A program made the position numbers and the translations under genes. From positions 1 to 55,015 of IMG/VR virus record IMGVR_UViG_3300047483_000184: 55,015 nt of DNA; one strand, written 5' to 3'. The notes beneath the pieces are model-generated. The model was not told where the DNA came from. It made no database searches and was given only the letters and a program-made list of their open reading frames with translations. The DNA is from a virus. Of this stretch, positions 831-21,967 are shown piece by piece; the first letter of the stretch is position 1, and every line of letters begins with the position of its first letter.

Positions 831-856
831 GTTCTGTAATTTTTTTTTAGTGTTAG

Positions 857-865
857 TTATATATT
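857..865 (-). promoter_or_regulatory. Putative promoter motif upstream of nrdB
   Basis: Minus-strand AATATATAA lies 27 bases before the nrdB start in the only gap (831-886) between the polymerase fragment and nrdB. It fits the recurring motif with core ATA(A/T)ATA. AT-rich DNA makes chance matches easy. Confidence 0.3.
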
Positions 866-886
866 ATTGTTAAAAATTATATGAGC

Positions 887-2305: not shown

Positions 2306-2306
2306 A

Positions 2307-2774
2307 TTAATATCCGCGTTGTTGGCGTGCTTTGTTTTCAGCTGCCTTTGTGAAGTAATAGTTATATGCTGTTTTTGCATCTAAGCCAATAGAAGCTGCG
2401 TAATTGATAAAGAAATGCAGAATGTCAATCCATTCCATGTACAATTCTTTTTTATCGCCTTCAGAAAGATCTGAAACTTTTAAAGTGTCATATTTGGTAA
2501 AGTCTTTTTTCCAGTATTTCCAAACTGCGTTACCGCTGCCATCTTTAATACCACCTAAAGCATCTGTCATTTCGTGAATTTCATCAATTACAGCATGCGT
2601 ATTTACATGCCAAAAATTCATTACTTCGCGAATTGTCATGTCTTCGAATTTGATACCGTAAGTATTTTCTTGCATCTCTTTTTGATGCTCCATTATATCT
2701 GCTAAATGGGTTGTAGATTCATCATAAAAGTCATTAACTTCTAAATCTTTGCATTCGTTGTCTATATTTGCCAT
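2307..2774 (-). CDS. 56: dCTP/dUTP pyrophosphatase, T4 gp56-like
   Basis: All-alpha NTP pyrophosphatase of the dimeric dUTPase/T4 gp56 family, which hydrolyses dCTP and dUTP to monophosphates. The 155-residue protein (T4 gp56 is about 170) has the metal-binding pattern DEIHEMTDALGG (Glu65, Glu68) and EWIDILHFFIN (Glu114, Asp117). It shares the T4-like VWKYWKK segment and the C-terminal signature AENKARQQRGY. In T4 this enzyme keeps dC out of phage DNA and feeds dCMP to hydroxymethylase. It directly precedes the polymerase fragment (one base apart), so both are probably co-translated. Whether dCTP, dUTP or both are substrates cannot be told from sequence. Confidence 0.9.
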   Translation of the reverse strand: MANIDNECKDLEVNDFYDESTTHLADIMEHQKEMQENTYGIKFEDMTIREVMNFWHVNTHAVIDEIHEMTDALGGIKDGSGNAVWKYWKKDFTKYDTLKVSDLSEGDKKELYMEWIDILHFFINYAASIGLDAKTAYNYYFTKAAENKARQQRGY

Positions 2775-2823
2775 ATTCTTATTTTTCAGGTTATATCTAA
2801 AAAGGCTTAATTGTTTCTATGAA

Positions 2824-3930
2824 TTATTTAAAAAATAAATTAGTTTTTAAATCTGACAATGCAGATGCTATAACTTGATGCATATCATAATACTTGTATT
2901 CTGCTAATCTACCACCAAAAAATACAGAATCCGTGTTAATTGCAGCTTGTTTGTATTTTTTATAGATATACATGTTGTGTTCATCGTTGACGGGATAATA
3001 TGGCTCTACGCCTCTTTTATAATCCACCGGATATTCCCAAGACACTAATGTATTTTTTTGATTTTTAAAATTAAAGTGTTTGTGTTCTATGCTTCTAGTG
3101 AATTGAATATCTGCTTCTGTGTAATTAACTACTGCATTGCCCTGAAAATCTGTATTTTCAAAAAAGCGTGTTTGAAATTCAACTGTTTTATATTCTAAGT
3201 CGCCGTATTTGTAATCAAAATATGCATCGATGGGACCTGTGTAAATTATTTTATTAGCTTTAGAATTCCAATAATCTTTATCTTTTAAATAATCTACTTC
3301 TAATTCTATTGAAATTCCGTCTAACATTTTTTCAAACAGACTTGTATAGCCATCGACTGGAATCCCTTGATATTTGTCATTGAAATAATTATTATCCCAC
3401 GTAAAACGAACTGGCAATCTTTTGATTATCGAAGCTGGTAAAAGCTTAGCTGATTTCTTCCATTGTTTTTCAGTGTAACCTTTGATTAATTTTTCATAAA
3501 TATCTGTTCCAACTAAAGCTAATGCTTGCTCTTCTAAATTTGTGATTTCTCCAGTGTATCTTTGTGATTCTATAATTTCTTTAGCTTCTTGTGGTTTTGT
3601 AACACCCCATAATTTATTGAAGGTCCACATTGAAAATGGTAAAGAATACATTTCACCACCGTATTTAGCAAGTGGTGAATTTCTAAAGTTATTAAACTCA
3701 CCGAATTGTTGAATCCATTGCCAAATTGTTTTATCATTGGTATGAAATATATGAGCACCGTATACATGAACGTCAATATCTTCTTCTCTTCTGGTATACG
3801 CATTTCCACCTATGTGATTTCTTTTTTCAATCACAAGTACTTTCTTGCCTAAACGGCTCAGTTCGTATGCACAAACTGAGCCGTAAAATCCTGAGCCAAC
3901 TATTAAATAATCGTAATCTTTGTTATGCAT
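2824..3930 (-). CDS. glf: UDP-galactopyranose mutase
   Basis: Flavoenzyme that interconverts UDP-galactopyranose and UDP-galactofuranose, the donor for galactofuranosyl transfer. The 368-residue length equals the bacterial enzyme (E. coli Glf about 367). Seen: FAD Rossmann motif IVGSGFYGS (residues 10-18), KRNHIGGNAYT, the YGAHIFHTND segment, the central TEKQW and RLPVRFTWDNNYF segments, and the C-terminal FGGRLAEYKYYDMHQVI flavin motif. It looks complete and close to bacterial enzymes, suggesting acquisition from a bacterium. Its start overlaps the end of the GT2 gene by 8 bases, so the two are probably translated together and work in one pathway. The acceptor (phage DNA, virion protein or host glycan) is unknown. 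Confidence 0.96.
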   Translation of the reverse strand: MHNKDYDYLIVGSGFYGSVCAYELSRLGKKVLVIEKRNHIGGNAYTRREEDIDVHVYGAHIFHTNDKTIWQWIQQFGEFNNFRNSPLAKYGGEMYSLPFSMWTFNKLWGVTKPQEAKEIIESQRYTGEITNLEEQALALVGTDIYEKLIKGYTEKQWKKSAKLLPASIIKRLPVRFTWDNNYFNDKYQGIPVDGYTSLFEKMLDGISIELEVDYLKDKDYWNSKANKIIYTGPIDAYFDYKYGDLEYKTVEFQTRFFENTDFQGNAVVNYTEADIQFTRSIEHKHFNFKNQKNTLVSWEYPVDYKRGVEPYYPVNDEHNMYIYKKYKQAAINTDSVFFGGRLAEYKYYDMHQVIASALSDLKTNLFFK

Positions 3931-5071
3931 TTTCTAATTTAGCTTCTAAATTTTTAAAATGATTTAGATTATCTATAAGTCTTGGTTTTGCGTGTTCAAA
4001 TTCTGGATCATTGATGATTTCGTTTATTAATTTAACGCCTTCGTCAACTCTATTAGTCCAAAAACAAGCAACTGATAATTCATCATTGATATATTTACCA
4101 TAACACGTTGCGTTTACAAATAGTAGATATTTGCTTTGCGCATATTTTAAAGAAATTTTCTTAGCTCTACTTAGATAATCATAAGCTAAAGTATGATTTC
4201 CAATTTTATTCAGATAAAGACCTAAATAATAATAAGGTTCGGCTCTATCTGGTGAAAGCGTTATAGCCGTATTCATTTCATCTACAATTAAATTAGGATC
4301 TGAATCTGGCAAAGCCATCAAACATCTAGAAATTCTCATTTGTGCTTCAAATCTTTCTTCACTCCAAGTATCTTTTAATCTTGTATAAAGTCTATTCCAT
4401 TGTAAACCTTCTAACATCATATTAGAATCCATATAACTTTGTGCACAATAGAAAGCTGATCTATGATTTAATCCATCTGGGTCAAAGGCTAATGTATCAA
4501 AGAATTGTTTCTTTAATCTTTCAGCATCGTAAAAATACTTCTTAGGATCAAATGCTCTTGAACCAACAGGATCACAAATAACCCAACCTCTGGTTGATAA
4601 ATCTCCAGTGGAATAATTAGGTCTGTCAATACACTTAATAATCGTATGAGCAGTTCCACAGAATTTCCAACGCAATCTATTATTATAAACAACAGTAGCT
4701 TTATATGTTGCACTACCACGTTTCATTGTCATATAATAACAATCTTCGCCAGCATCTTCATTAGTAAAACTAAAATCACCTGCTAAAATATCATCAGCGT
4801 CTAAATGTAATACGTAATCTGTTTTATCTTTAACGTATTCCATCATTAAATTCTTGTTCTTGTCAAATCCAAACCATTCATCATTATGAATTTCTCCTGG
4901 AATACCAGTACGATCCATAAATTCTCGAACGATTTCTAAAGTTCTATCAGTAGAACCATTATCGGCAACTACAAGATAATCAATATAAGGCGCAACTGCG
5001 TCAAGTACTTGTCCGATGACATGTTCTTCATTTTTACACATAGTTGCAAATGCAAGTGTTGGTCTGTTCAT
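3923..5071 (-). CDS. Family 2 glycosyltransferase with TPR-like C-terminus
   Basis: GT-A fold glycosyltransferase. Seen: N-terminal ATMCKNEEHVIGQVLDA, the nucleotide-sugar binding VVADNGSTDRT, and the metal-binding DxD in LHLDADD (Asp91, Asp93). The C-terminal half (about 200-380) is helical with tetratricopeptide-like spacing (for example EPYYYLGLYLNKIGN, then a similar helix pair). The 382-residue protein resembles bacterial SunS/WaaE-type GT2 proteins with TPR tails. It overlaps glf by 8 bases, so UDP-galactofuranose is a plausible donor (inference). The acceptor cannot be read from the sequence; DNA base, virion protein and surface glycan are all possible. Confidence 0.88.
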   Translation of the reverse strand: MNRPTLAFATMCKNEEHVIGQVLDAVAPYIDYLVVADNGSTDRTLEIVREFMDRTGIPGEIHNDEWFGFDKNKNLMMEYVKDKTDYVLHLDADDILAGDFSFTNEDAGEDCYYMTMKRGSATYKATVVYNNRLRWKFCGTAHTIIKCIDRPNYSTGDLSTRGWVICDPVGSRAFDPKKYFYDAERLKKQFFDTLAFDPDGLNHRSAFYCAQSYMDSNMMLEGLQWNRLYTRLKDTWSEERFEAQMRISRCLMALPDSDPNLIVDEMNTAITLSPDRAEPYYYLGLYLNKIGNHTLAYDYLSRAKKISLKYAQSKYLLFVNATCYGKYINDELSVACFWTNRVDEGVKLINEIINDPEFEHAKPRLIDNLNHFKNLEAKLENA

Positions 5072-5078
5072 AATTTTA

Positions 5079-5972
5079 TTATTTTACGTCTATGATTTCG
5101 CCCCATTCTCTTTGGGCATTGATTGATTGTTTAGTGTCTTCATTTTCTGGCTTAGGATTTCCACCGACATTCCAAAACCAAGAACCTGGACTTCCATTCT
5201 TAAGCATTAATTCCCAAGCTTTTGCATCATAATTTAATGCACTTGGAAATGGTGGTTCAAATTCAGTTGCAACATTTTGACTAAATTCTTTTGGATGTGA
5301 CCATATTGTTGCTCGACCTCTTTCGCCCGCTTTAATATTTCTAGCTACTGCAACACCATTAAACTCTGCGTTTGGCCATGCGATTTGTAAAGCTCTTCCT
5401 AAAACTCCAGTTGAAATAGCGTGCCAAACTTCTTTAGGTTCTCCGTGAGTTTGAGCTAAGTCATAAGCTACTTTAACTGCAGCTGCTGTAACTAATTCGT
5501 GTCTTAAACCAAGCGGTATAAAAAAGCCATTGTTTTCTTTGGCCCAATCAGCTGCAATTTTATTAAGATTTGGCATAGCAGCGATTCTACGAAATTTCAT
5601 ATCTGCACCTCTTTCAATACAAATTGCTTGGTGATCTGAAATTTCTTTTTGACTTGGACTAAAAAGAACTAATTTTTTGTTGTATTTCTCAGCTAAATAT
5701 GCCAATGAAATTCCAGCAAAACCATATCTTGGTTGTACATAAACTAAAGTATCTGATTGACATGTTGAAACTAAAATATCACCGAAGCGACACTTAGAAC
5801 CAAAGCCCATTAAATCTTCTCTAACTACATTAAAGCCATCGTGTTCTTTTACTATAGGAGCTGGAAATGGATCTTGCCAATCTCCTGCTAATTCTAGCCA
5901 AGCATCTCTGTTTGGGTAAGCTAAATTTAAGTCTTGATTAAAATTGCTTGTTGTATGATTATTATGTGACAT
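5079..5972 (-). CDS. PLP-dependent fold-type II enzyme (ACC deaminase/cysteine desulfhydrase-like)
   Basis: 297-residue protein of the tryptophan synthase beta superfamily. Seen: probable Schiff-base lysine in GFGSKCRFGD (Lys60), a QPRYGFAGISLAYLA segment where family members position PLP, and a glycine-rich phosphate-binding loop STGVLGRALQ near residues 187-196. This resembles the 1-aminocyclopropane-1-carboxylate deaminase/D-cysteine desulfhydrase branch, but the substrate is unknown. PLP enzymes occur in published phage DNA-hypermodification loci (Iyer and Aravind group), where they are thought to act on amino-acid adducts. It sits 7 bases upstream of the GT2 gene and directly abuts the homing endonuclease gene (TAA then ATG). 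Confidence 0.8.
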   Translation of the reverse strand: MSHNNHTTSNFNQDLNLAYPNRDAWLELAGDWQDPFPAPIVKEHDGFNVVREDLMGFGSKCRFGDILVSTCQSDTLVYVQPRYGFAGISLAYLAEKYNKKLVLFSPSQKEISDHQAICIERGADMKFRRIAAMPNLNKIAADWAKENNGFFIPLGLRHELVTAAAVKVAYDLAQTHGEPKEVWHAISTGVLGRALQIAWPNAEFNGVAVARNIKAGERGRATIWSHPKEFSQNVATEFEPPFPSALNYDAKAWELMLKNGSPGSWFWNVGGNPKPENEDTKQSINAQREWGEIIDVK

Positions 5973-6572
5973 TTAATCTTTTTTAAGTTTACAATTATCG
6001 AAATGCCATCTTTTGACATTTGCAGGTTTACCTATAAATTCACAATGAGGACATTGTATATTTTTTCTTTTTTTAAAGCTTTCTTTCATATTCGCAATAT
6101 GCGCTTCACTCTTTGGTCCTTTTTTATTAGATGAATCTTTATTAGGCTTTCTAAGTTTATTCAAATGTTCTTGCGTAAAAATTCTATCTTTCAGTGCTTC
6201 AGATTGTTTTCTTTTGGTTTCATCACTATGTTTTTTACCTTTCATTCCACTTGAACCGCCCAAATGATGTTGTCTAATTTTTTCTCTAACTTCATTTGTA
6301 AATATTATTTCTGAGCCTCTTGCATTATTATAGAATTCATCTGATTTTAAATCTATTTCTTTTAATATTCTTTGTTCTATAACTAAACAAGCTTCTGTAG
6401 TTCCTTCAGCTAATATTCTTCTTTGCCATTTCATATTTGGATTTTTAAAATCTTCCCAAAATATAGAACTAGAAGATGAACAAATATATCCATCGTCTTT
6501 TGAACCTTTATGATAACCAATATATTTTTTATTATTAGTTAAATTTATCCACTCGTATACAAATGCTTCCAT
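5973..6572 (-). CDS. GIY-YIG homing endonuclease with NUMOD3 motifs
   Basis: 199-residue free-standing homing endonuclease like T4 Seg proteins. Seen: a GIY-YIG core in variant form (FVYEWINLTNNKKYIGYHKG, residues 4-23), catalytic-region Arg/Glu in KWQRRIL and VIEQRILKEI, and a DNA-binding NUMOD3-type repeat GMKGKKHSDETKRKQSEA. At the C-terminus is a probable zinc finger (CPHC, then H and C about 15-19 residues later). Such genes spread by cutting related phages that lack them. It interrupts an otherwise tightly overlapping operon and has a 61-base upstream gap with its own promoter-like motif, both consistent with a late insertion. Confidence 0.88.
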   Translation of the reverse strand: MEAFVYEWINLTNNKKYIGYHKGSKDDGYICSSSSSIFWEDFKNPNMKWQRRILAEGTTEACLVIEQRILKEIDLKSDEFYNNARGSEIIFTNEVREKIRQHHLGGSSGMKGKKHSDETKRKQSEALKDRIFTQEHLNKLRKPNKDSSNKKGPKSEAHIANMKESFKKRKNIQCPHCEFIGKPANVKRWHFDNCKLKKD

Positions 6573-11964: not shown

Positions 11965-12411
11965 TTATAGATTTCCATACTTTTCAAAGATAAAAGCTTC
12001 GAATGATTTTGCTAGTTTTTTCTCGCGTTTCTTTTTCTTCTTCTTTTCCTTTTCGTATTCGTCATCGGCATCGCCTCTGCCTGCTGGTTTATCGCCTGAA
12101 CCAACAGCACCAGTACCTAAATCTGGTAAAGCTATTTTGCCCATGCCCATACCTGGCATTCCAACTGATTGTGGTCCACCTGAGCCAGTTGCAAAACTCA
12201 TAGATTCGTTAGAATCTGAGTCTACTTCGTCTGGCAAACCTTCATGTGGTGTAGTAGCATAATCTTTAAGTTGTTCAATGCTCATTGAATTAACAAGCTC
12301 TTTAACTTTGTCTTTATACTCTGCACCAACTTGCGCGATGTCCATGTAACCTTGCTTAACTGAATAAGCTAGTCCCATTAATCTTTGTTGTGCTTTTGAT
12401 TTTGCTGGCAT
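11965..12411 (-). CDS. DUF3008-like virion protein with C-terminal capsid-targeting-like motif
   Basis: 148-residue protein. The N-terminus MPAKSKAQQRLMGLAY and MSIEQLKDYATTPHEGLPD match the DUF3008-type pattern found in many phages (often near head genes). A glycine/methionine-rich middle and a run of lysines (about 122-131) follow. It ends KSFEAFIFEKYGNL: F-x-x-F-I-x-E-K is like the T4 internal-protein capsid-targeting sequence, here at the C-terminus. This suggests a head-internal component. It is last in its transcription unit, followed by a terminator, and lies 18 bases after the 826-residue gene. Confidence 0.65.
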   Translation of the reverse strand: MPAKSKAQQRLMGLAYSVKQGYMDIAQVGAEYKDKVKELVNSMSIEQLKDYATTPHEGLPDEVDSDSNESMSFATGSGGPQSVGMPGMGMGKIALPDLGTGAVGSGDKPAGRGDADDEYEKEKKKKKKREKKLAKSFEAFIFEKYGNL

Positions 12412-12429
12412 GTTTTTGTTTTATTTTAA

Positions 12430-14910
12430 TTACCAGATATAAGAGAATGATTCTATTTTATCAAGTCTGTCTTTAAGTTCTTTGGCTTTTTGTTCAACCT
12501 CTCTTTTGTACCAAGATTCCGCTTCTCCGTATTTTGCAACTGAATCTTCTTGTTGAGCAACAACTCGAACATATCCAGAATAATCATCTAAAATACGTTG
12601 CATGTGATTTGCAACATCTGATAATTTAGCTTCAGCGCCTTTTGCATTCGTACCAACAATAATTTCACCGTAACGTCCTTTGGTTTGTTTAGTTAAACCG
12701 TCTTTGATTTGGTTAGACATAGTTTCAATTGCTTTTGCAACTAAGCTATCCATTGGCATTTGTGTTGCTTTTTTAGCAATGATTTGGTTGTATCTTGCCA
12801 TGTTTTCGGCTTTAAAATCTTTATCTGATTTAAATGCAATTGCACCTTTTTTAGCTGCTGCTCTTTCAGCTCTTTCAGCTTCGGCAGAATATTTCTGTCT
12901 TAATAAAGCAATATTAATTACAATTGCTCTATCAGCTACTTCTGAAATTCTTTTTACATTGTAAAGACCCGTTGCATCCCAGCCGCTGTATTTTTTATTA
13001 ATACCGATTGAATCGCTTGGATTATTATCCACTTGTTTCAACGTTCTGTTTTTTGCATTTCTGTCCCATCTTCCACCGGTCCAAGCATTGTCATAAAACT
13101 TATTATCACCCGAAGCAACTGCTAATAAATAGCCTTCACCTGGAATTGTTTTGCTTGTGTAATATGCATCTGATGGCGCATATGGATTTGACTTTTCTGT
13201 ATCAGAAATATAAAAAATGATCGAATCGTTTTGTTTGTTTTTATAAGCTAATGCAGGAGACGTAGTTAAAAGATCTTCGTCTTCGATTTGATCTAATTTT
13301 AATTTAGTAGCACCATAAAATGCTTTTGCTAAAGGAGCATCAAATGTACCTTGTCTTGTAAATAGACCTGCTAACATCGATGATTTGAATGATTCCGTTA
13401 CTAATTCAAATGATTCATTTATAGAATCAACGAATTCAGAAAATGATTCGTAGATGAATTTGTTTTCCATGTTATTATTTTCGTTTGTTTTTAATTTATA
13501 ATCATTTTGATAAAGAGTAGCTGCTATTCTTTGACCTGTTTTTGTCAAACCAACTTTATCTTCTTGGATATTAAAGAATGTTGAATTTCTTCTTAACCAT
13601 CTTTTAGAATCCTCAGTTAAGCCTGAAACTAAAGTATCGAATTCTTCTTTGGTTAATTCGCCGTCTTTTAAAGCTTCGATGATTTTATTTCTAATAGCTG
13701 CGTGTTTTCCGGCTGTTTTAGCTGGATAATTTTCAGTATATTGTCTTTTTAAAGTGATTTTAGATTCATTAACTTCAAATGTTTCAAAGGCTTTATCCTT
13801 TTTAGGAGCTGGTAAAATATCACCAACCTTTGGTAATTTATCATATTGTTTTAACCAATCTTGGTCTAACATCATACCAAACATAATATGAAATCTTTTA
13901 TCTTCAACTTTCGATACGTCTGGAAAACTTGAATGAATAACTTTATCAACACTAATAACATAGATTTCATTAGCCTTTTTATCAATGGCGTAAGTTACTA
14001 AAGTTTTATCGAAATCTTTTGAACCGAACACTGCTTCAAAAACTTCAGATTCATTAGCTTTAATCATATCATCTGTAATATCTCCTGATTTAACGGCGTT
14101 TTCAATAGCTTTAAAAAGTTTATTTTTATAATCGGCCGGTGCATTTTTAATTTGATCAGGCGTTACTTTGTGATTTCCATATTTTGGGTGTTTAACGCTA
14201 TTTAATGATGTGCCAGTAAACCAAGATGCAAAAGCATTTGAATACGATTCACTCTCACTAATTTCTTCAGATTCTTTAATAGGTTTCTTTAAACCTTTAA
14301 TAAAGTCTTCAACTGAAGAATCCATTTTACCATAAATTTCATTTGGAGTTACTGCATGATTTACAACAGAACCATCATCATAAATATTATATGAACCGCC
14401 ATCGTATTCTTCTCCATCATAATCTAAATCAAATGAATCTTCTTCTAATGTTTTCAAATTAACTGTCACTTTTGCGCCTTCTGCTTTTGACATTGCTTTA
14501 GCTAAAGTTTCTGCAACTTTTTTAGTTTGAGCCTTTGTTAAACTAGCTGGAGCTCCAAAATTAGAAGCTTCATCCAATTCTTCAGATTCGTTAACTGCTT
14601 TTTTAGCAGCGGCAATAATCTTTGATTTGTTATTTTTACCAAAATACCAGTACATTCCTGCTACAACGCTATCTTCAGATTCACCTGCAATGATAGCATC
14701 AGCTGCTTGTCTACCTGCTTTGCTATTTAATAAAGCGACTGCTTCGGTATCTTTAAGACCAAATTCTTTCATTAAGTCTTTTACGGCTGCATCAAATATT
14801 TCATCAGCTATCTTTTCATTATGGTTATCTTCCATGGAACCATAGAAGCCATACGCTGTATTGATGTCATCTTTGGTATATTTTTCATTAAGGAACTTGT
14901 TAAAATTCAT
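12430..14910 (-). CDS. Large probable internal head protein, possible two-gene fusion
   Basis: 826 residues with no enzyme motif recognised. The N-terminus MNFNKFLNEKYTKD resembles T4 capsid-targeting sequences (F-x-x-F-I/L-x-E). Acidic linkers with sites like those cut by T4 prohead protease gp21 recur: VNE108 S, ANE288 S, VNE382 S, INE499 S. Residue Met481 opens a second targeting-like stretch (MENKFIYESF) preceded by A-rich codons resembling the leader of a start site. The gene may thus be a fusion, or have an internal start at 13470. The C-terminal part has long charged helices (AERAERAAAKK, and 795-817). Probably packaged in the head and proteolytically processed (inference). Confidence 0.65.
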   Translation of the reverse strand: MNFNKFLNEKYTKDDINTAYGFYGSMEDNHNEKIADEIFDAAVKDLMKEFGLKDTEAVALLNSKAGRQAADAIIAGESEDSVVAGMYWYFGKNNKSKIIAAAKKAVNESEELDEASNFGAPASLTKAQTKKVAETLAKAMSKAEGAKVTVNLKTLEEDSFDLDYDGEEYDGGSYNIYDDGSVVNHAVTPNEIYGKMDSSVEDFIKGLKKPIKESEEISESESYSNAFASWFTGTSLNSVKHPKYGNHKVTPDQIKNAPADYKNKLFKAIENAVKSGDITDDMIKANESEVFEAVFGSKDFDKTLVTYAIDKKANEIYVISVDKVIHSSFPDVSKVEDKRFHIMFGMMLDQDWLKQYDKLPKVGDILPAPKKDKAFETFEVNESKITLKRQYTENYPAKTAGKHAAIRNKIIEALKDGELTKEEFDTLVSGLTEDSKRWLRRNSTFFNIQEDKVGLTKTGQRIAATLYQNDYKLKTNENNNMENKFIYESFSEFVDSINESFELVTESFKSSMLAGLFTRQGTFDAPLAKAFYGATKLKLDQIEDEDLLTTSPALAYKNKQNDSIIFYISDTEKSNPYAPSDAYYTSKTIPGEGYLLAVASGDNKFYDNAWTGGRWDRNAKNRTLKQVDNNPSDSIGINKKYSGWDATGLYNVKRISEVADRAIVINIALLRQKYSAEAERAERAAAKKGAIAFKSDKDFKAENMARYNQIIAKKATQMPMDSLVAKAIETMSNQIKDGLTKQTKGRYGEIIVGTNAKGAEAKLSDVANHMQRILDDYSGYVRVVAQQEDSVAKYGEAESWYKREVEQKAKELKDRLDKIESFSYIW

Positions 14911-14932
14911 AACTTTTATTATTTTTCTTTAT

Positions 14933-14941
14933 CTATATATT
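14933..14941 (-). promoter_or_regulatory. Putative promoter motif upstream of the 826-residue gene
   Basis: Minus-strand AATATATAG, 23 bases before the start at 14910, in the 37-base gap 14911-14947. Fits the recurring core ATA(A/T)ATA with the same spacing as at several other genes. Confidence 0.35.
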
Positions 14942-14947
14942 AATATA

Positions 14948-16402
14948 TTATTTCATTTTAAATCCTAGTTTGCCATTGTCTGGACTATACACGGATTGAT
15001 TTGGCGCTTCAAACGTGAATTTAACGCCTTCTGTTGAAAATGATTTAAGATGTAACATCATCTCTTGTTTTTTAGGGGCAAAATCCAAATACAATTGTTT
15101 TACTTCTAATTTAGATAGTAATTCTGTTAAGGATGCTTGATATGTACCATTGCTATTTAAATAATCTGTAACATGGTAGCTCATAGGTCCTATGATTGCT
15201 CCATATAATTTAGTGCTCTTGATTTTATTCCACTCTACCGATTTACCCTGTGGGTATCTTCCAATAGTGCTATAAAAACCATCAAATACTTGCATAAATG
15301 AATCTGGATCTTTAGCTAAAATATCTGTAATGAATTTATTTAAACTTTCAGTGGTTACATTCTTTTCTTTAGTTATTTCAACTAATTTTTGGTAACCTGG
15401 TAAATTAAGTAATTGTGAAATAGCTAAATATCCAGCAGATACTTTATTACTTTCAACTGTATTAAAAATCTGCCAAAGTTCTCTTTGAGCTTGTGTTGTT
15501 AATTGATCTGAATCTACGTTTTTAATAATTCCAGTCAAAGTCGGTGCAGCACCTGATTTATATTTTGAAGATACTCCGTAACCATCTATGTAAAAATCTA
15601 CTAACGGATTATTTCCTGTTGGAAATTCAACTCCTTTTTCATATCCACATGCATTCATCATGTAAATAGCTCCAAGAATTTCACCAAAATCTTTACCAAC
15701 TGTATTTAAATCAGATGGATCGAATTTAGCAACAAATCCTGCAGTATTAGGTGAGTATTTAATAGTTTCTTCAAATGAATCAACATGACCTGCAGATTCA
15801 AAATTATGCTTTGAAGAATGTCCAGCAACATCATCAACCATAGAAGTTAATAAACCTACAATAACTTCTTGATCTGAAAATTTAGATCTTACTGCTTTTT
15901 TTGTAAATTCAACTAGCTGTCCTTTGTTTAAGTACGTCGGTGGTAATCCTAGTCCAGTCGGTGTTAAAATTTTAGAAGTAAATGAACCGCTTGGAACATC
16001 ATCGTTTACTATATGAAACTGTAAACCCATTGGATAATCAATTCCTTTAATAGTAACAGCATCTTCTAATTTAACAATATACGTGTAATATGTACCTGAA
16101 TATGCGCCTGCTTTATAATCTTTTGGTGAGATTGCATCAATAGAATAATTGTTTAATTCTTTTTTAAGAATTGAATTGATATTGTCAAGTGAATCATTAA
16201 CTGATTTTCCCAACATATATCTTAAATGTTTAGGTCTTCTACCTGATTCTATTTTACCATCGTGCCCGTTTTTATCAAAAATAAGTCTTAGATAATTAAT
16301 CAAGCTACTTTCATCACCTGATTTTGATTCATTTAAAGAATCGAATTGTTTATTTAATTCGGCCTGAAATCTAGCTCTAATGTCCCCTGGTGTAATTGCC
16401 AT
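14948..16402 (-). CDS. Putative PD-(D/E)XK-type nuclease, probable head cargo
   Basis: 484 residues. The stretch GKDFGEILGAIYMMN (Glu241), then NPLVDFYIDGYGVSSKYKSG (Asp269, Asp273, Ser278, Lys280) has the layout of a PD-(D/E)XK nuclease core: acidic helix residue, beta-strand aspartate, then a strand ending in x-x-K. Folded enzymes of restriction type share this pattern, but the assignment is by eye. Near the N-terminus FDSLNESKSGDE carries an LNE/S site like a prohead-protease cut. It shares one base with the upstream ligase-like gene (TAATG at 16402). It may act on host or phage DNA after injection, or during packaging; an inactive structural role is also possible. Confidence 0.5.
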   Translation of the reverse strand: MAITPGDIRARFQAELNKQFDSLNESKSGDESSLINYLRLIFDKNGHDGKIESGRRPKHLRYMLGKSVNDSLDNINSILKKELNNYSIDAISPKDYKAGAYSGTYYTYIVKLEDAVTIKGIDYPMGLQFHIVNDDVPSGSFTSKILTPTGLGLPPTYLNKGQLVEFTKKAVRSKFSDQEVIVGLLTSMVDDVAGHSSKHNFESAGHVDSFEETIKYSPNTAGFVAKFDPSDLNTVGKDFGEILGAIYMMNACGYEKGVEFPTGNNPLVDFYIDGYGVSSKYKSGAAPTLTGIIKNVDSDQLTTQAQRELWQIFNTVESNKVSAGYLAISQLLNLPGYQKLVEITKEKNVTTESLNKFITDILAKDPDSFMQVFDGFYSTIGRYPQGKSVEWNKIKSTKLYGAIIGPMSYHVTDYLNSNGTYQASLTELLSKLEVKQLYLDFAPKKQEMMLHLKSFSTEGVKFTFEAPNQSVYSPDNGKLGFKMK

Positions 16403-18270
16403 TATTTATTATTTAAAAATTGTTCAAAGGTTAATATGTCTGTACTTGCTTCTGTTTCAATAGCTTCTGAAATTTTCAATGAAGTTTCTAACTTTTGTTT
16501 AAGTTCATTGAATAATGGCCCCAACGCTTTAGGTGTCATTTTATCAAAAGTCTTTTTATCATTAGCTAATAATGCTTCTCTAACTTTAGTTGCTGAAATG
16601 TCGTCGTCGTCTCTTTTGATTTCAAATAAACCAAATTCTGGTAAAACACCAAGTTCATCTCTATATTTGTCATTGTTTACTTGATAACCATATGTTTTGA
16701 AACGATCTGTTCCTGTTCCCCATAAAACTGGTTCATATTTAGGTCTCATTTCGTTAAACATCACATCAATACCTGCAGTTGGAATTACAAATATCTCTTT
16801 CAAGAAAGGATATTGTTTTTGAACTTGCATAAACATTTCGATTTGAGTTTCAGTGTCAAATGGTCTTTTAGCAGCATCGTCCTTTTGTGCTTTGGCTGCT
16901 TTAACCAAAAATACTACGACTGGATAACCATTTTGTTTGTGAATTGTTTCTAAAACTTTAGCGTGACCAAGAGTAAATGGTTGGAATCTACCAACAAACA
17001 TGTTTACTTTTTCTTTACCTTGTTCTGAATGATTAATTTTTAATGCTTCATTCATGTTAGTTTTACTAGCTGAAATCTTGTTATGCATTAAAAAATTACT
17101 GAAGTTGTGAATTGCATTTTCGTCTGCATTTTCTACAAATACCTTTTGTTCAATTACATCAATGATCTGATTTAACTGTTCTAAAATATTTGAATTTAAT
17201 AATGCAGATTCTTTTATTTTCTTTTTAGAAAAAGAGCTTAGCATGATTTTATAAAGTTCAGCTAACACTGGATTTTCTAAGTATTCTAATGTCTTTTCAT
17301 TATCAATATACTTGGTATTGATGTTAAACAAGGCTGACTTAGAAAAATCAGCTGCTCCAAAATCAACGCCAACATATTTAGTAGCATTTTCTTTAACATA
17401 TGAATTGTACATTGCTGAAATTAATTCAATATATCTTTTATCAGAAGCTGTTTCTAAAAGCTCAATACTGTCTAAATCTACTGTTGAAAAGAATTCTAAC
17501 AAATCAACCATTGTAATTTGATACATGTGACTTGCTTCTCTATTAGAAGTGTCAGCCTCATTAGCCGTTTTAAATTCTTCTAATTTAAAACTTTTAATTT
17601 GTGTTGAATCCACAAAAGAAACTATTAAACCGTCAATCGGCTTAACTAGATCTTCATTTAAAACTGTTTTATAAGCACCCGGATTAAATAATTTGTAAAT
17701 GTGGTTGGTGAACGCTTCATTTCCAAATCTTTTAGCGTATGCTTCGTTTGACATTGAAAGCAATGTCACTAAATTTCTCTTTTGATCCTCATTTAAAGTA
17801 CCATCAAAAACAATAGATGGTCCTTGTACTTGTAGTTTTTGTGCCCATTCCTTTAGAATTTTAGGATCTGTTAAAACTTTTTTAGCTTTACCATTAGTAC
17901 CTAAAACTTGAATGTGCGTTAATATCATGAAATTGAAAGGCGTTGAATCATATTCAATAGAAGCCATATTGGTTTCTGGTAAATATTCAAATCCAAACTT
18001 CCAATCGCTTGGCATTTGATTCTTTTCGTTTAATGTTAAACTTTGAAAGTGTTTAATGGCATTCTCATATACTGATGTTAACGTTCGATCTATAATATTC
18101 ATAGCTTCGTTATTTCCAGATTTGAAATACTCAAAACCTTCCATTGCTCTTCTAACATGAAATGAAGCTCCTGCAATCTTTTCAGTTACAACAACTCTCA
18201 TCTTTAACATATCGTTAAACTCGTTGGGATTTGTACCTTGGTAAAAATCTCTTAATTTTTGTAATGCCAT
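16402..18270 (-). CDS. Fusion: ligase-like nucleotidyltransferase plus NMN adenylyltransferase-like domain
   Basis: 622 residues. Part one (about 1-230) has the order of motifs of covalent nucleotidyltransferases (RNA/DNA ligases, capping enzymes): VVTEKIAGAS (Lys31, motif I), FGFEYLPE (Glu95, motif III), KPIDGLIVSF (motif IV, Asp instead of Glu) and QIKSFKLEE (Lys226 or Lys229, motif V). Part two (424-600) is a HIGH-type nucleotidyltransferase of the NadM/NadR kind: MFVGRFQPFTLGH (T-x-G-H) and DDISATKVREALL (ISxTxxR). The linker contains MNE408 A, a protease-like site, and Met424 looks like a natural N-terminus. The C-terminus LTFEQFLNNK is targeting-like. Substrates unknown; RNA end chemistry or NAD metabolism are candidates. 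Confidence 0.68.
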   Translation of the reverse strand: MALQKLRDFYQGTNPNEFNDMLKMRVVVTEKIAGASFHVRRAMEGFEYFKSGNNEAMNIIDRTLTSVYENAIKHFQSLTLNEKNQMPSDWKFGFEYLPETNMASIEYDSTPFNFMILTHIQVLGTNGKAKKVLTDPKILKEWAQKLQVQGPSIVFDGTLNEDQKRNLVTLLSMSNEAYAKRFGNEAFTNHIYKLFNPGAYKTVLNEDLVKPIDGLIVSFVDSTQIKSFKLEEFKTANEADTSNREASHMYQITMVDLLEFFSTVDLDSIELLETASDKRYIELISAMYNSYVKENATKYVGVDFGAADFSKSALFNINTKYIDNEKTLEYLENPVLAELYKIMLSSFSKKKIKESALLNSNILEQLNQIIDVIEQKVFVENADENAIHNFSNFLMHNKISASKTNMNEALKINHSEQGKEKVNMFVGRFQPFTLGHAKVLETIHKQNGYPVVVFLVKAAKAQKDDAAKRPFDTETQIEMFMQVQKQYPFLKEIFVIPTAGIDVMFNEMRPKYEPVLWGTGTDRFKTYGYQVNNDKYRDELGVLPEFGLFEIKRDDDDISATKVREALLANDKKTFDKMTPKALGPLFNELKQKLETSLKISEAIETEASTDILTFEQFLNNK

Positions 18271-18341
18271 TTCTTTTATTTTTGTTTTACAAATATAATA
18301 AATTTATTTGATATATGAAAATATTTGTAGATTTATTTTAT

Positions 18342-19622
18342 TTATCTTCCGTATTTTATAATACCCATAAGCTGATTGATGGCAGCAAATGTTCCAGTAA
18401 GCTTAAATAATTTACCTTTATATTGAAAAACTAAACCTTCTGAAGGTACAATAGATTCAATACCACCAATAGAATCTAACCTAGCTAATTCCTTTTCTAC
18501 TTTAGCCAATTGGGTTAAATCACCGTTTTGTTTGATTTTATCAGCTTCTGTTTTAATTTGTGTATGTAGCCTTTGCATTTCTTGCGCTGGATTAGCAACT
18601 AAAAGATTAGAAACATTCTTTAAAACAACTGAACCTAATTCTAAGAATAAGTTTTCAAATGGTAAAATGTTTTCTTTAAACTTTTTAACTGAATCTTCTT
18701 TGTCGAATTTTTGAAAAGCTTTGTATTCAGCTGGATCCATTTTCTTTGCAAGATCTCTAATATTTAAAGTTTTCTTGTCATTAAAAGCCCATCTTTGTAC
18801 TAAACCTGCTTTATCGATCTCGTCTAATTTAGAAAAATCTTTATCAATAAGTTCTTTCCACCACATTTCGTGATATTTAGAAACTGGTTCTGTATCTTGT
18901 AAATTATATCTCTTTTGTAAAACTTGTACTTTATTTAAGAAATAGCCTTTCTTTTCTTCAAAATCAATTGATTTTCCTATTTGTAATTCTTGGGGTGGAA
19001 TTATTTCAAATGTTTTTTGTATGTGTGTATTAACTGCTTTTAAAGCATTTGCTATTTTACCAGCTAATTTAGAATCTGAACCTGTTTGGTTACCTTCTCC
19101 ATCAGTATGAACCATTCCGTGAAATTGAATAACGTCTTTACCATAAGCAATTACGTTTGAGTTTCCAGAATAAATTAATTCCATATTCATAAATGAAGTA
19201 CCTTCGTTAAAATCTTCTTGATCCTTCTTAGATAATGATTGTAACGCACTGGCTAAATCTTGCGCTGCGAACGTAAATGTATCTCTAACGCCGTCAGACG
19301 GATGGTCCTGAAACATCTGTGTGATTCCGCTAAGGTCTAATGGTTGTTTCATCTGCCCTTTATTTCTAGCAAACATAGCTTGACCATTTTTAACTGTAAC
19401 AAATATGTTTTGTCCATCTGTTTTTTCAGTTGGAGCTGCTTCGAAATCTAAACGACCTTCTAATGCACCGTCAATAATATGTTTGATTTCACCGAATGTA
19501 AGAGTTTCATCATCAAATGGATGCATCATGTGTCCTGCTGCTCCACCTTCTAAGATAATGTCTGGATATTGTTGGTTCCATTTTTCAATAAGGAACTCTG
19601 TATAATTTAAAAGTGCTTTCAT
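18342..19622 (-). CDS. DUF6267-like ligase-family protein with capsid-targeting-like N-terminus
   Basis: 426 residues. The N-terminus MKALLNYTEFLIEKW is like the T4 internal-protein targeting sequence, followed by GGAAGHMMHPFDD, the hallmark I associate with the DUF6267 family of T4-like phages. Covalent nucleotidyltransferase motifs: TEKTDGQNIF (Lys67, motif I KxDG), ARNKGQ (motif Ia-like), FMNMELIYSG (Glu148, motif III), PSEGLVFQYKG (Glu395, motif IV) and KLFKLTG (Lys407, motif V). All catalytic positions seem intact, so an active ATP-dependent nucleic acid ligase or nucleotidyltransferase is likely; the substrate is unknown. A terminator lies just upstream, and no promoter motif is obvious in the gap 19623-19682. 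Confidence 0.68.
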   Translation of the reverse strand: MKALLNYTEFLIEKWNQQYPDIILEGGAAGHMMHPFDDETLTFGEIKHIIDGALEGRLDFEAAPTEKTDGQNIFVTVKNGQAMFARNKGQMKQPLDLSGITQMFQDHPSDGVRDTFTFAAQDLASALQSLSKKDQEDFNEGTSFMNMELIYSGNSNVIAYGKDVIQFHGMVHTDGEGNQTGSDSKLAGKIANALKAVNTHIQKTFEIIPPQELQIGKSIDFEEKKGYFLNKVQVLQKRYNLQDTEPVSKYHEMWWKELIDKDFSKLDEIDKAGLVQRWAFNDKKTLNIRDLAKKMDPAEYKAFQKFDKEDSVKKFKENILPFENLFLELGSVVLKNVSNLLVANPAQEMQRLHTQIKTEADKIKQNGDLTQLAKVEKELARLDSIGGIESIVPSEGLVFQYKGKLFKLTGTFAAINQLMGIIKYGR

Positions 19623-19636
19623 ATTAAAAGAAAAGT

Positions 19637-19664
19637 AAAAGACCCAAATCGATTGGGTCTTTTT
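19637..19664 (-). terminator. Intrinsic terminator after gene 19683-20054
   Basis: Stem GACCCAA (19641-19647) / TTGGGTC (19653-19659), loop ATCGA, flanked by A4 and T5 that extend the stem; symmetric, so possibly bidirectional. For minus-strand transcripts it lies about 20 bases after the stop at 19683. Confidence 0.85.
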
Positions 19665-19682
19665 AATTTTAGATATTTTAGT

Positions 19683-20054
19683 TTAAAGATTCTCTTCGAT
19701 ATAATCTGCTAAATCTTCATCATCCCATCCATATTCACCATCTGCTAAAACTACTTTAAGATCTTTAACATCTCCTGTTAATCTAACTTCAGGATAACCA
19801 GACGGTCCCTTTTTGTTAATTACTTCCATAGAAACATTGTGTTTCTTTAATAATTTGCCTAAGTTTTTATCCTTAGGATCTACTGCGTCTACTTCAACTG
19901 TAGCTTCGTTAGTAACTGATTCTCCTAAAGAACTTGTTAACATTCCGATAGCTGCGCCGTAATCTCCGTCAACTTTACCAAGAATTCCTTTGATTACATC
20001 ATCTGCTTTAGCTTCATCAAAATCATCTTTGAATGCATCTTTTAAAACTGTCAT
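19683..20054 (-). CDS. Small acidic protein, perhaps the frameshifted tail of the 620-residue gene
   Basis: 123 residues from the first ATG (20054). The reading frame is, however, open back to a TAA at 20126-20124. The 22 codons in between read like protein (EFNEEDIKSDDQFKEYAM) and continue the same helical style. No ATG, GTG or TTG lies there. The frame overlaps the end of the 620-residue gene at a run of six A, so a -1 shift would join the two. The second half (KNLGKLLKKHNVSMEVI, then EVRLTGDVKDLKVVLAD) looks like a compact alpha/beta domain. GESVTNEATVE contains a protease-like NE/A site. Either a separate short gene with a poor start, or a C-terminal extension made by frameshift. Confidence 0.6.
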   Translation of the reverse strand: MTVLKDAFKDDFDEAKADDVIKGILGKVDGDYGAAIGMLTSSLGESVTNEATVEVDAVDPKDKNLGKLLKKHNVSMEVINKKGPSGYPEVRLTGDVKDLKVVLADGEYGWDDEDLADYIEENL

Positions 20055-20104
20055 TGCATATTCTTTAAATTGATCATCTGACTTGATGTCTTCTTCATTG
20101 AATT

Positions 20105-21967
20105 CTACAGCTTCTTGAATTTTTTAGCAGCTAATTTATCATCTTTCTTTGAAACGTTGTCTGTATAAGAACCATCTCCCCAAAATGCTACAATAGCATT
20201 AGTATCTGCTGTTGAATGAAATCCTGAACCGGCATTAAAAACGTCTACGAATTGTAAACTTTTTTTATTTTTGATTAAGTCTTTTGCAAAATCAATAGCT
20301 TGTTTTTCATTACCGAATTTCTTCATTGCTCTAACACCATCAGAATAATGAACTTCAAAACCTTCATCGACTGAATATAATTTTAAAACCATAGATTCCA
20401 TTGCTAATTCTAAGTCTTTATCTTTATCTGATACGACTGCATCTAATTCAGCTTCTAAAGCTTTCTTTTTAGCTGTCATTTCTTTTAAGGTATTTAATAA
20501 TGCAGTTTTAGCATCTCCTTCAGCCGCTTTCCAACTAGCTGCAGTATCTTTCATTGCGTTAGTAACTTTAGTCCACTCGGTTTGAATCTTATTAATAGAT
20601 CTTGCTTCGTTTACGTCATCGTTTTCAACTGATTCGCTAACAGAATCTTTTAAAGACTTTAATTCTGCTTTTAATTTAGAATCTAAGCTTCTTTCGATAC
20701 CCCAGTTAAATGATGCTTTAACTAACATTTCTAATGGTAAATTACCATTTTTCTTTCCGTATGGAGAAGTTCTAATCCAATCGATAAAATGTTGTGCTAA
20801 TTCTTTTGACATTTTGATACCTTCAGCACTTGAAGAATCGCCATCTACGATACCTTGAAGTAATTTAGTTGCCATTCCATGAGAACCTTCGTTAACTTCT
20901 GATTCGTAAAGACCTTCAAATTTATCATTAATTCTATATGCAATATAACCAATGATTTCGTCTAATTCAAACATTTCATCGCTTAAATCTTCAATTACTA
21001 ATTTTGCGCAATCTAATAAAGCGTTCATTTCTTTGATTGGCACTAATCCGCCCATTCTACTGATAGCAGATCTTGAAACATTATAATTTGCTTCAAACAC
21101 ATCGTCAATTACATCAAATTCAGATGCATTGTCTTCTTTAACTTTGTATGTTTTACCGTCAAATTCAAATTCTTTTTCTCCAGCCTCTTTAGCTTTTGTA
21201 ACTGCTGCACCAAATGCATTACCTTCAGTTAAAAGTGATTCTGCAACTGGCTTTAATTCTTTATCTTCATAAGTGTCAGCCATGTACCATTTACCGTCTC
21301 TTTCGTCGTATAAATAAGCATATTCTGCGCCTGATTGATTTGCAACACCTTTTAAATATTTAGCTACGTTTTTAACGTCGGCTTTAGTAGTCATGTCACC
21401 TTTTTCATTTCTATCTCTTCCGTAAAATAAAGTGATGCCTTTTTCTGGATTACTGAAATCCATTGGTTTATCACCAATTTTAGCATCTAAGTACGAAATA
21501 CCAGCCTTACCCAATTTTAATAATTGATCTACTGATTTTGCGTCTTTATAATTTTTTAACAATGGTACCATATTTTGTGGATAACCATCATAGTGTACAT
21601 AAGTTGATACAATTTTACCAGACTTGTCAATTTTACCAATTTGAGATCTTGTACCTTCGTTGATAACTGCTTCGTTTGTTAATTCTTCACCTTTTTTAGG
21701 ATCTTCTTTTTTAGGCTCACCTAATTTAACAATATCTTTTTCGATTTCTTCTGCTTCATCTTCATTAAAGATTTTAGCAACTAAGGCATTTCTTTTTTCT
21801 TCATCTAATTCTTGTAGTGAAGTAACACCCATTTCTTCAAGAGCTGCACCGATTTTAGATACGATTTCTGCTCTTTTGGCTTTACCTTCTTCGTGAAGTT
21901 GAGCTGCCTTTGTTTGGTTTTTAACCTCAGTAAAGGACTTAAATGATGAAATTTTTTGTACTGACAT
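20105..21967 (-). CDS. Multi-domain probable internal head polyprotein
   Basis: 620 residues. N-terminus SSFKSFTEVKN is faintly targeting-like. Five sites resemble prohead-protease cuts: TNE99 A, INE104 G, LTE248 G, VNE360 G and VNE454 A. Between them lie separate domains. Residues 108-240 (STYVHYDGYPQNMVPLLKNY and ITLFYGRDRNE) match a small domain of unknown function found in phages and bacteria. Residues 249-280 (AFGAAVTKAKEAGEKEFEFD) match a short motif I recall from T4-like virion proteins. Later parts are helical. This looks like a polyprotein cut during head maturation (inference). It ends AAKKFKKL at an A6 run overlapping the next frame. Confidence 0.65.
   Translation of the reverse strand: MSVQKISSFKSFTEVKNQTKAAQLHEEGKAKRAEIVSKIGAALEEMGVTSLQELDEEKRNALVAKIFNEDEAEEIEKDIVKLGEPKKEDPKKGEELTNEAVINEGTRSQIGKIDKSGKIVSTYVHYDGYPQNMVPLLKNYKDAKSVDQLLKLGKAGISYLDAKIGDKPMDFSNPEKGITLFYGRDRNEKGDMTTKADVKNVAKYLKGVANQSGAEYAYLYDERDGKWYMADTYEDKELKPVAESLLTEGNAFGAAVTKAKEAGEKEFEFDGKTYKVKEDNASEFDVIDDVFEANYNVSRSAISRMGGLVPIKEMNALLDCAKLVIEDLSDEMFELDEIIGYIAYRINDKFEGLYESEVNEGSHGMATKLLQGIVDGDSSSAEGIKMSKELAQHFIDWIRTSPYGKKNGNLPLEMLVKASFNWGIERSLDSKLKAELKSLKDSVSESVENDDVNEARSINKIQTEWTKVTNAMKDTAASWKAAEGDAKTALLNTLKEMTAKKKALEAELDAVVSDKDKDLELAMESMVLKLYSVDEGFEVHYSDGVRAMKKFGNEKQAIDFAKDLIKNKKSLQFVDVFNAGSGFHSTADTNAIVAFWGDGSYTDNVSKKDDKLAAKKFKKL

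Follow-up and report, generated by a model that had tools for sequence, protein, structure and literature searches.

The locus at 16402-18270 of the window (the whole 55,015-nt stretch analysed, IMG/VR record IMGVR_UViG_3300047483_000184) raises the question of what a phage gains by joining a ligase-like and an NMNAT-like domain in one probable head protein, and whether the ligase half is itself the active enzyme. The single 622-aa ORF on the minus strand is real, and its two-domain nature, claimed from the sequence alone, was borne out by structure prediction: the AlphaFold model (mean pLDDT 81, with low confidence in the linker, residues 381-408) has an RNA-ligase-like N-terminal half, matched by Foldseek to T4 RNA ligase 2 and a fungal tRNA ligase, and a C-terminal half matched to PPAT and NMNAT. 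The N-terminal domain is here called ligB, and the product of the adjacent gene ligA. The coordinates are collected in Table 1.

Table 1. Features of the fused protein, ligA and neighbouring genes in the window.
Feature	Position	Strand	Basis or remark
ligA, 426 aa, RNA-ligase-like covalent nucleotidyltransferase, partner of the fused protein	18342..19622	(-)	Invariant motifs, Foldseek, BFVD, hhalign
N-terminal peptide of ligA, capsid-targeting-like, MKALLNYTEFLIE...IILE; prohead-protease cut predicted before GGAAGH	19548..19622	(-)	Motif counts
ligA Lys67 in EK-T-DG, predicted nucleotidyl-lysine	19422..19424	(-)	Invariant, 106/106 distinct relatives
Fused protein, 622 aa	16402..18270	(-)	Degenerate RNA-ligase-like ligB, linker, HIGH-family NMNAT/PPAT-like adenylyltransferase, C-terminal targeting-like motif
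ligB domain, residues 1-380	17131..18270	(-)	RNA-ligase fold; catalytic motifs eroded among relatives
Lys31 of ligB (EKIAGAS), would-be nucleotidyl lysine	18178..18180	(-)	K in 62/73, Q/D/N in 11
MNE/A linker site, residues 406-409, prohead-protease-like	17044..17055	(-)	Conserved pattern; linker pLDDT <50
HIGH-family adenylyltransferase domain, residues 420-595, GRFQPFTLGH ... ISATKVR	16486..17013	(-)	PF01467 and Foldseek
TFEQF C-terminal motif, residues 614-618, capsid-targeting-like	16417..16431	(-)	Motif counts against background
484-aa protein with PD-(D/E)XK-like pattern	14948..16402	(-)	E241, D269 and K280 invariant in six relatives
826-aa probable head cargo protein	12430..14910	(-)	CTS-like start MNFNKFLNE
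DUF3008 protein, probable head cargo	11965..12411	(-)	CTS-like C-terminus SFEAFIFE

The adenylyltransferase half has the HIGH-family fold together with the T/H-x-G-H and I-S-x-T-x-x-R motifs of NadM-like enzymes. Residues 424-565 match Pfam CTP_transf_like (PF01467, 1.7e-9), and by sequence the closest PDB entry is MJ0541, an archaeal NMNAT (1f9a; phmmer 1.9e-4), while among fold matches PPAT (3.1e-6) ranks above NMNAT (1.7e-4). The predicted signature is kept in relatives, with S-x-T-x-x-R intact in all 71 distinct sequences, and the domain may make NAD+.

The ligase half fared differently. Residues 1-380 adopt the Rnl2-type fold according to Foldseek, with T4 Rnl2 as the best PDB match (2hvq, E 1.8e-7, prob 1.00), but the catalytic pair proposed in the sequence-only reading, Lys31 (motif I) and Lys229 (motif V), did not stand as a reliable one: the Rnl2-type K-x-x-G and motifs III-V are not conserved in the family, and the complete set occurs in 0 of 73 distinct relatives. 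Lys31 is replaced in 11 of these, G34 is lost in 40 (present in 33) and K229 is kept in 53. Motif I is eroded in two ways, either to EQLDGSR, where the lysine is gone, or to EK-I/V-A/S-A-P, where the D/G is gone, and megaphage relatives carry the ligB domain alone, without the lysine and without the NMNAT. It is thus doubtful that the fused polypeptide is an active covalent nucleotidyltransferase and, judged from these alignments, Lys31 is not reliable as a nucleotidyl lysine. Since most ligB sequences near that of the window, including its own clade, keep Lys31, some residual activity is possible. The best explanation is that the fused protein is a pseudo-ligase subunit carrying an adenylyltransferase; ligA, next to it, is the likelier active ligase.

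In ligA, K67, D69, G70, R86, E148, E395-G396, V398-F399 and K407 are invariant in 106/106 distinct relatives, giving a nucleotidyl lysine in K-x-D/H-G and motifs III, IV and V (EKxDG, EGxVF). The sequence-only reading had passed over this intact motif set in the adjacent gene. The top PDB fold matches of ligA are all RNA ligases or ligases and are weak (E 0.02-0.5, best 0.021, none below 0.001). In the BFVD fold list RNA ligases come first after the closest phage proteins, and hhalign against the canonical phage RNA ligases of carrier phages gave E 1.3e-4 (prob 53%) with motif I in register. Plain Pfam and PHROG scans of the window ligA gave no useful match, so it has likely been overlooked in annotation; a relative (L184) has a weak match to Pfam RNA_ligase (0.022), and searching PDB sequences with the ligA profile returned only a chance RelB match. 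Profile comparison of ligA with ligB (hhalign) showed no similarity, and therefore no duplication is claimed and the term paralogue is unproven. A conserved H-x-x-H-P-[FY]-[DE] before motif I could be an NMN-binding element. On this reading ligA would be the active nucleic-acid-sealing enzyme, with RNA as the probable substrate.

The two activities form a near-obligate pair, and this is well supported. Among loci fetched by ligA alone, with partners allowed up to 4 kb away, a HIGH adenylyltransferase was found in the same ORF or nearby in 120 of 121 decidable cases (23 others being undecidable at contig ends): the two lie in one ORF for 97 distinct ligA and in neighbouring ORFs for 23, and one ligA is without. 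The pairing was 157/160 for all loci under a 1.5-kb limit. That it arose from searching with the fused protein was rejected, as the ligA-only census still gave 120/121. Same-ORF architectures occur in both orders (NM-ligA, NT3-ligA, ligA-NM, NM-ligA-NM), and in one relative (L187) ligA has no HIGH nucleotidyltransferase within 6 kb. No prior description of the pair was found in the literature and databases searched. The module is common in uncultured phages, with at least 587 contigs, yet among 50,697 phage records ligA was found in only three: two metagenomic entries and the isolate Microcystis phage Mel-JY01 (protein WWT39297.1, which has GGLGGH).

Other fused partners include a PolyA_pol/CCA nucleotidyltransferase (L185, 1.5e-29), AAA_33/zeta-type P-loop kinases (6/44) and a Pnkp-like polynucleotide phosphatase, phrog_415 (L096). 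Downstream, the gene for the 484-aa protein follows with its start codon overlapping the stop codon of the fused gene. Neither Pfam nor PHROG gave a useful match for this neighbour in plain scans, and a PD-(D/E)XK-like protein of the same type is fused to the ligB-NMNAT C-terminus in three relatives (L032, L033 and L169).

The guess that this is a head protein, with a processing-like linker site and a targeting-like C-terminus, gained support from motif counts. TFxx[FY] is C-terminal in 56 of 63 distinct relatives and lies just before an added domain in four more, against a background of 12/1675 other ORFs. The linker pattern hydrophobic-x-E/A-(L,I,V,M) is found in 47 of 53 distinct linkers of fused-protein relatives. 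For standalone ligA, [FY]xx[FYW][ILVMT]x[ED] occurs upstream of GG in 53/64, compared with 93/1204 other ORFs (7.7%). The hydrophobic-x-E/GG cut pattern of ligA is found in 93 of 94. The module thereby has the capsid-targeting sequence and prohead-protease site of a T4-type internal head protein, and on these counts the strong conservation of both predicted signals is well supported. T4 gp21 cleaves after L/I-x-E (PMC9026906). A gp21-family protease (Peptidase_S77) is encoded in 9 of 10 carrier records; the window, itself a fragment, shows none. From these signals, and from the related NMNAT-like proteins detected in cyanophage virions (see below), we infer that ligA and the fused protein are packaged in the virion and injected.

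In the mechanism proposed, capsid-targeting peptides would bring ligA and ligB-NMNAT into the prohead, where a gp21-like protease would cut the ligA leader after ...ILE and may release the adenylyltransferase from ligB at MNE/A; in their mature form, ligA, ligB and the adenylyltransferase would then enter the cell together with the DNA. There, ligA charged with AMP on Lys67 would seal 5'-phosphate/3'-OH ends, most likely on RNA, such as tRNA, that host defences have cleaved. As a pseudo-ligase, ligB would bind the ends or ligA and carry the HIGH adenylyltransferase, which would convert a 5'-mononucleotide and ATP to a dinucleotide such as NAD+, and this would either feed or recycle the AMP donor or restore NAD+. 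That the pair is such a virion-packaged, injected module of a T4-like phage, sealing nucleic-acid (probably RNA) ends, is given about an even chance. A broader version, a widespread virion-delivered pathway in which the HIGH adenylyltransferase and an RNA-ligase-type enzyme share the same adenylate (for example, a ligase fuelled or recycled via NAD+ from its fused partner), is put forward more tentatively. Among the functions suggested from the sequence alone, repair of RNA ends is the more likely, NAD supply is a possible one, and chemistry on NAD caps has found no specific support. Canonical RNA ligases (PF09414) are already present in 7 of 10 carrier records (six over the cut-off), so a second RNA ligase would be redundant unless timing matters.

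The packaged HIGH domain could instead be a genuine NMNAT that rebuilds NAD+ right after entry to counter NAD-depleting defences, the ligase folds being sensors or NAD+ users of secondary importance. The archaeal NMNAT match favors this, as do the NMNAT-like proteins reported in virions of S-SCSM1, S-CBWM1 and S-SZBM1, along with a cytidylyltransferase homologue in S-CREM2 (PMC9602691, PMC10665884). A NadV-like NAPRTase, another point in its favor, is found in 3 of 10 carrier records, including that of a 97%-identical relative (L010), but was not seen in the other seven; the records are often incomplete, and some are fragments. NMN specificity is only putative, and neither the intact, invariant ligase as constant partner nor the CCA nucleotidyltransferase, kinase and phosphatase partners are explained, making this unlikely. 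Less likely still is a DNA role: after injection ligA would close nicks in the incoming genome or circularise it, the HIGH domain would recycle NMN to the NAD+ donor, and packaged PD-(D/E)XK-like proteins would also process this DNA. Head packaging would place the enzymes on the genome itself, and such proteins are encoded in the next gene or fused; against this, ligA matches RNA ligases, the partner nucleotidyltransferase is CCA-type, and there is no room in ligA for a C-terminal OB fold and motif VI, since the sequence stops right after motif V. An NAD+-dependent DNA ligase was also considered and rejected, the DNA_ligase_aden gene being absent in 8 of 10 carrier records.

The HIGH domain might also act on RNA directly, adenylylating 5'-phosphate or NMN-type ends to AppRNA or NAD-RNA, which ligA would then join or transfer in a two-enzyme pathway not known elsewhere. 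The NMNAT reaction on a 5'-mononucleotide is formally step 2 of ligation, and the fusion is near-obligate in both orders. Yet the self-charging motif set of ligA is already complete, so it should need no help with charging, and this route is judged improbable. That the fused protein is catalytically active in both domains, with ligA an unrelated neighbor, as the sequence-only reading implied, draws on the retained K31 in the window clade and the strong RNA-ligase fold match of ligB; the eroded motifs of its relatives and the pairing of ligA, which assigns the neighbor to the module, leave it with very little likelihood.

Known systems resemble the proposed sealing module in part. T4 RNA ligase 2 shares its fold with ligB and its motif set with ligA, and the kinase-, 3'-phosphatase- and CCA nucleotidyltransferase-like partners in some fusions recall T4 Pnkp-Rnl1 tRNA repair. 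What sets ligA apart is a large helical insertion separating motifs III and IV, its end after motif V, its HIGH partner and its head-targeting signals, while T4 Pnkp and Rnl1 are produced inside the cell and are not known to be packaged. NadM/NMNAT and the cyanophage virion NMNAT-like proteins (phrog_395, phrog_3041) have the HIGH fold, GRFxP..GH and ISxTxxR in common with the module, and cyanophage members also have a CTS-like starting peptide and occur in virions, but the two examined are without ligase motifs. Phage NadM has Nudix as its fusion partner and acts with NadV (PMC9503650), whereas here that place is taken by a ligase or pseudo-ligase. T4 internal head proteins (IPI-III, Alt) share the MK..[FY]xxF[IL]xE start (MKTYQEFIAEA in IPIII), the hydrophobic-x-E/(A,G) cut and a gp21-type protease in the genome, but are neither ligases nor NMNATs. 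Polyvalent proteins of phages are very long virion-linked fusions that combine ParB-like, zincin-like and further domains, and the sections of Iyer et al. 2017 (PMC5512222) drawn on here describe no RNA ligase-NMNAT pair. NARP1/NARP2 NAD+ reconstitution has possible phage NAD+ synthesis in common but is without a ligase partner; membership in NARP1 (Adps and Namat) was rejected because Namat has a Nampt-like core (PMC12774641), while the domain here is HIGH-family.

If the sealing module is real, nucleic-acid sealing would join the jobs done by injected phage proteins, a reason would be offered for the NMNAT-like proteins in cyanophage virions, and ligA with its HIGH adenylyltransferase would be a directly testable enzyme pair. 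If the shared-adenylate pathway also holds, the injected enzymes would repair RNA of host or phage origin ahead of any phage gene expression.

The ORF was found exactly where the sequence-only reading had placed it, and its interpretation as a ligase-like domain fused to an NMNAT-like domain proved right. The C-terminal third belongs to the HIGH family of adenylyltransferases (Pfam CTP_transf_like, 1.7e-9) and also matches phrog_3041 (5.7e-19) and the MJ0541 NMNAT; the first ~380 residues (ligB) gave no family match. In the AlphaFold model of the ORF (pLDDT 81), these residues matched T4 RNA ligase 2 (E 1.8e-7, probability 1.00), followed by a fungal tRNA ligase and then other RNA ligases, and the C-terminal half matched PPAT and NMNAT, so the folds of both halves uphold the two-domain reading. 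In fold, PPAT matches the HIGH domain as well as NMNAT does.

Coordinates of the fused ORF and its neighbours in the window
Feature	Coordinates	Strand	Length	Remarks
Fused ORF (ligB and HIGH domain)	16402..18270	minus	622 aa	
ligA	18342..19622	minus	426 aa	upstream of fused ORF; motifs EKTDG, ARNKG, NMELIY, EGLVF, KLFKLTG
PD-(D/E)XK-like protein	14948..16402			gene after fused ORF; E241, D269, K280 invariant in six relatives

Lys31 of ligB had also been proposed as the nucleotidyl lysine, and this held only in part: the residue is retained in the window's own ligB clade, but is not reliable in that role, as it is K in 62 of 73 distinct relatives and is replaced by Q, D or N in the other 11. 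Of the 73, 33 retain the glycine of motif I, and none combines the lysine with D/N/H-G, the glutamates of motifs III and IV and the lysine of motif V, the motif IV/V columns being alignment-dependent. Members close to the window read E-K-I-A-(G/A)-(A/P)-S, while distant ones have E-Q-L-D-G-S-R, the canonical motif with the lysine alone replaced, and megaphages of 634–735 kb carry the ligB domain by itself, lacking both the lysine and the adenylyltransferase. These patterns point to ligB as a probable pseudo-ligase.

The real ligase is predicted to be the product of the adjoining gene, ligA, whose key motif residues are invariant across 106 distinct relatives. The window's ligA had no meaningful match in Pfam or PHROG. 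Its structure model (pLDDT 87) gave weak matches throughout against the PDB, the best of them RNA ligases, and in BFVD RNA ligases again came next after members of its own family and some phage proteins that are uncharacterised. When it was aligned to a profile of canonical RNA ligases from the carrier phages (ten phage records with the module), motif I fell in register (hhalign E 1.3e-4, probability 53%). Since the sequence stops directly after motif V, it could not accommodate the OB fold found in DNA ligases.

Two IMG/VR scans with ligA alignments returned at least 584 and at least 587 confirmed stretches. Among loci fetched with ligA alone, a HIGH adenylyltransferase was found in the same ORF for 97 distinct ligA and in a neighbouring ORF (≤4 kb) for 23, and was absent for one; a further 23, undecidable at contig ends, were left out. 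With a tighter limit of 1.5 kb and all loci considered, the partner was present in 157 of 160 decidable cases, and the two form a near-obligate pair. The arrangements are NM-ligA, NT3-ligA, ligA-NM and NM-ligA-NM (NM, the NMNAT/PPAT-like domain; NT3-ligA, a same-ORF architecture), that of the window being ligA followed by ligB-NM. That ligA and its partner occur in either order within a chain, and that two or more HIGH subfamilies are involved, suggests repeated origins of the link. In L055 (4230-4760) and its relatives, ligA is fused to a divergent HIGH subfamily (GGFKPLTGAH), to which an unannotated sequence of the Lak megaphages of Prevotella is distantly related.

The window's proteins are predicted to be packaged, and this is well supported by targeting and cleavage motifs, a gp21-family protease (encoded in 9/10 carrier records) and related virion proteins of cyanophages. 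Of 64 standalone ligA, 53 carry the motif [FY]xx[FYW][ILVMT]x[ED] ahead of the core; among other ORFs its frequency is 93 of 1204 (Fisher p 3e-43, the sequences not being independent). These ligA starts resemble those of T4 internal proteins: IPIII begins MKTYQEFIAEA, with residues 4 and 7 directing targeting and 8 and 10 processing, and gp21 cleaves after L/I-x-E (PMC9026906). In 93 of 94 distinct ligA sequences the core's GG has hydrophobic-x-E in front of it, and this holds too where the adenylyltransferase precedes ligA in one chain. The processing-like linker site and targeting-like C-terminus noted earlier in the fused protein are likewise conserved, the former as hydrophobic-x-E/A(L,I,V,M) in 47/53 and the latter as TFxx[FY] in 56/63 (internal in four more; background 12/1675). 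In a rumen phage (L187), ligA lies near genes for a prohead protease and, probably, the major capsid protein. Mass spectrometry detected NMNAT-like proteins in S-SCSM1, S-CBWM1 and S-SZBM1 virions and, in those of S-CREM2, a cytidylyltransferase that was described as homologous to NMNAT (PMC9602691, PMC10665884).

The 55-kb record also encodes a UvsW-type helicase (55% identical to UvsW of the 462-kb phage LR756500), a primase, a gp32-type SSB, and baseplate and tail-fibre proteins, all on the minus strand. The region 11965-21967 holds a bank of genes whose products, with capsid-targeting-like sequences at the N- or the C-terminus, are probable head cargo; the 826-aa and 620-aa proteins among them have common modules shuffled among relatives. 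The start of a 199-aa ORF at 5973-6572 resembles GIY-YIG endonucleases.

Three of the other domains in module chains suit RNA-end mending: a CCA/poly(A) polymerase head (L185, 1.5e-29), P-loop kinases of the AAA_33/zeta class (6/44) and a phosphatase domain of the polynucleotide-kinase family (L096). ParB-like domains occur in LR756508 and L226. The L185 protein (835-6558, 1907 aa) joins ParB-like, polymerase, HIGH and ligA domains; its contig is binned as a Flavobacteriales MAG and carries phage terminase and portal-like genes. In two chains, further domains separate the adenylyltransferase from ligA: an SGNH-hydrolase-like stretch, recognised by eye (L080, 1675-4629), and a weak TIKI/ChaN-like match (L247, 2128-7233).

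In L032, L033 and L169 the ligB-NMNAT protein carries a relative of the PD-(D/E)XK-like protein as a C-terminal fusion, and elsewhere different PD-(D/E)XK-like proteins occupy its position. A Pfam scan recognised none of those scanned, so they are putative nucleases, judged by motif pattern. The position appears as a hypervariable effector slot (also in L010, L008, L028, L030 and L050) whose proteins either have a common N-terminus, MAxTxGDIRARF, or are fused to the adenylyltransferase, and differ in their PD-(D/E)XK-like cores; they look like exchangeable packaged nucleases. In Synechococcus phage S-SCSM1, the virion protein adjoining the NMNAT (2340-3674) has a D...SLKK pattern and might be PD-(D/E)XK-like, in which case cyanophages would share packaged nuclease and adenylyltransferase neighbours.

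The open-access literature searched yielded no description of the ligA-adenylyltransferase pair. Excerpts of reviews on phage NAD systems and polyvalent proteins cover NadM-Nudix, NadR-kinase and many packaged enzymes, and the pair is absent from these excerpts. The components are of known kinds; what is new is the near-obligate pairing, the packaging signals and the abundance. The simplest interpretation is a module that is injected and seals ends, in which ligA would charge itself and then seal ends, ligB would bind or position, and the HIGH domain would supply NAD+ or another dinucleotide. Three features make RNA a likelier substrate than DNA: the ligase subfamily, the lack of an OB fold, and the partners of CCA-polymerase and Pnkp-like type. 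A novel chemistry, with the adenylyltransferase and the RNA-ligase-type enzyme working on the same adenylate, seems rather unlikely. Since ordinary RNA ligases are already encoded in 7/10 carrier genomes and NadV in 3/10, the purpose of the packaged end-sealing set may be timing, allowing it to act before transcription.
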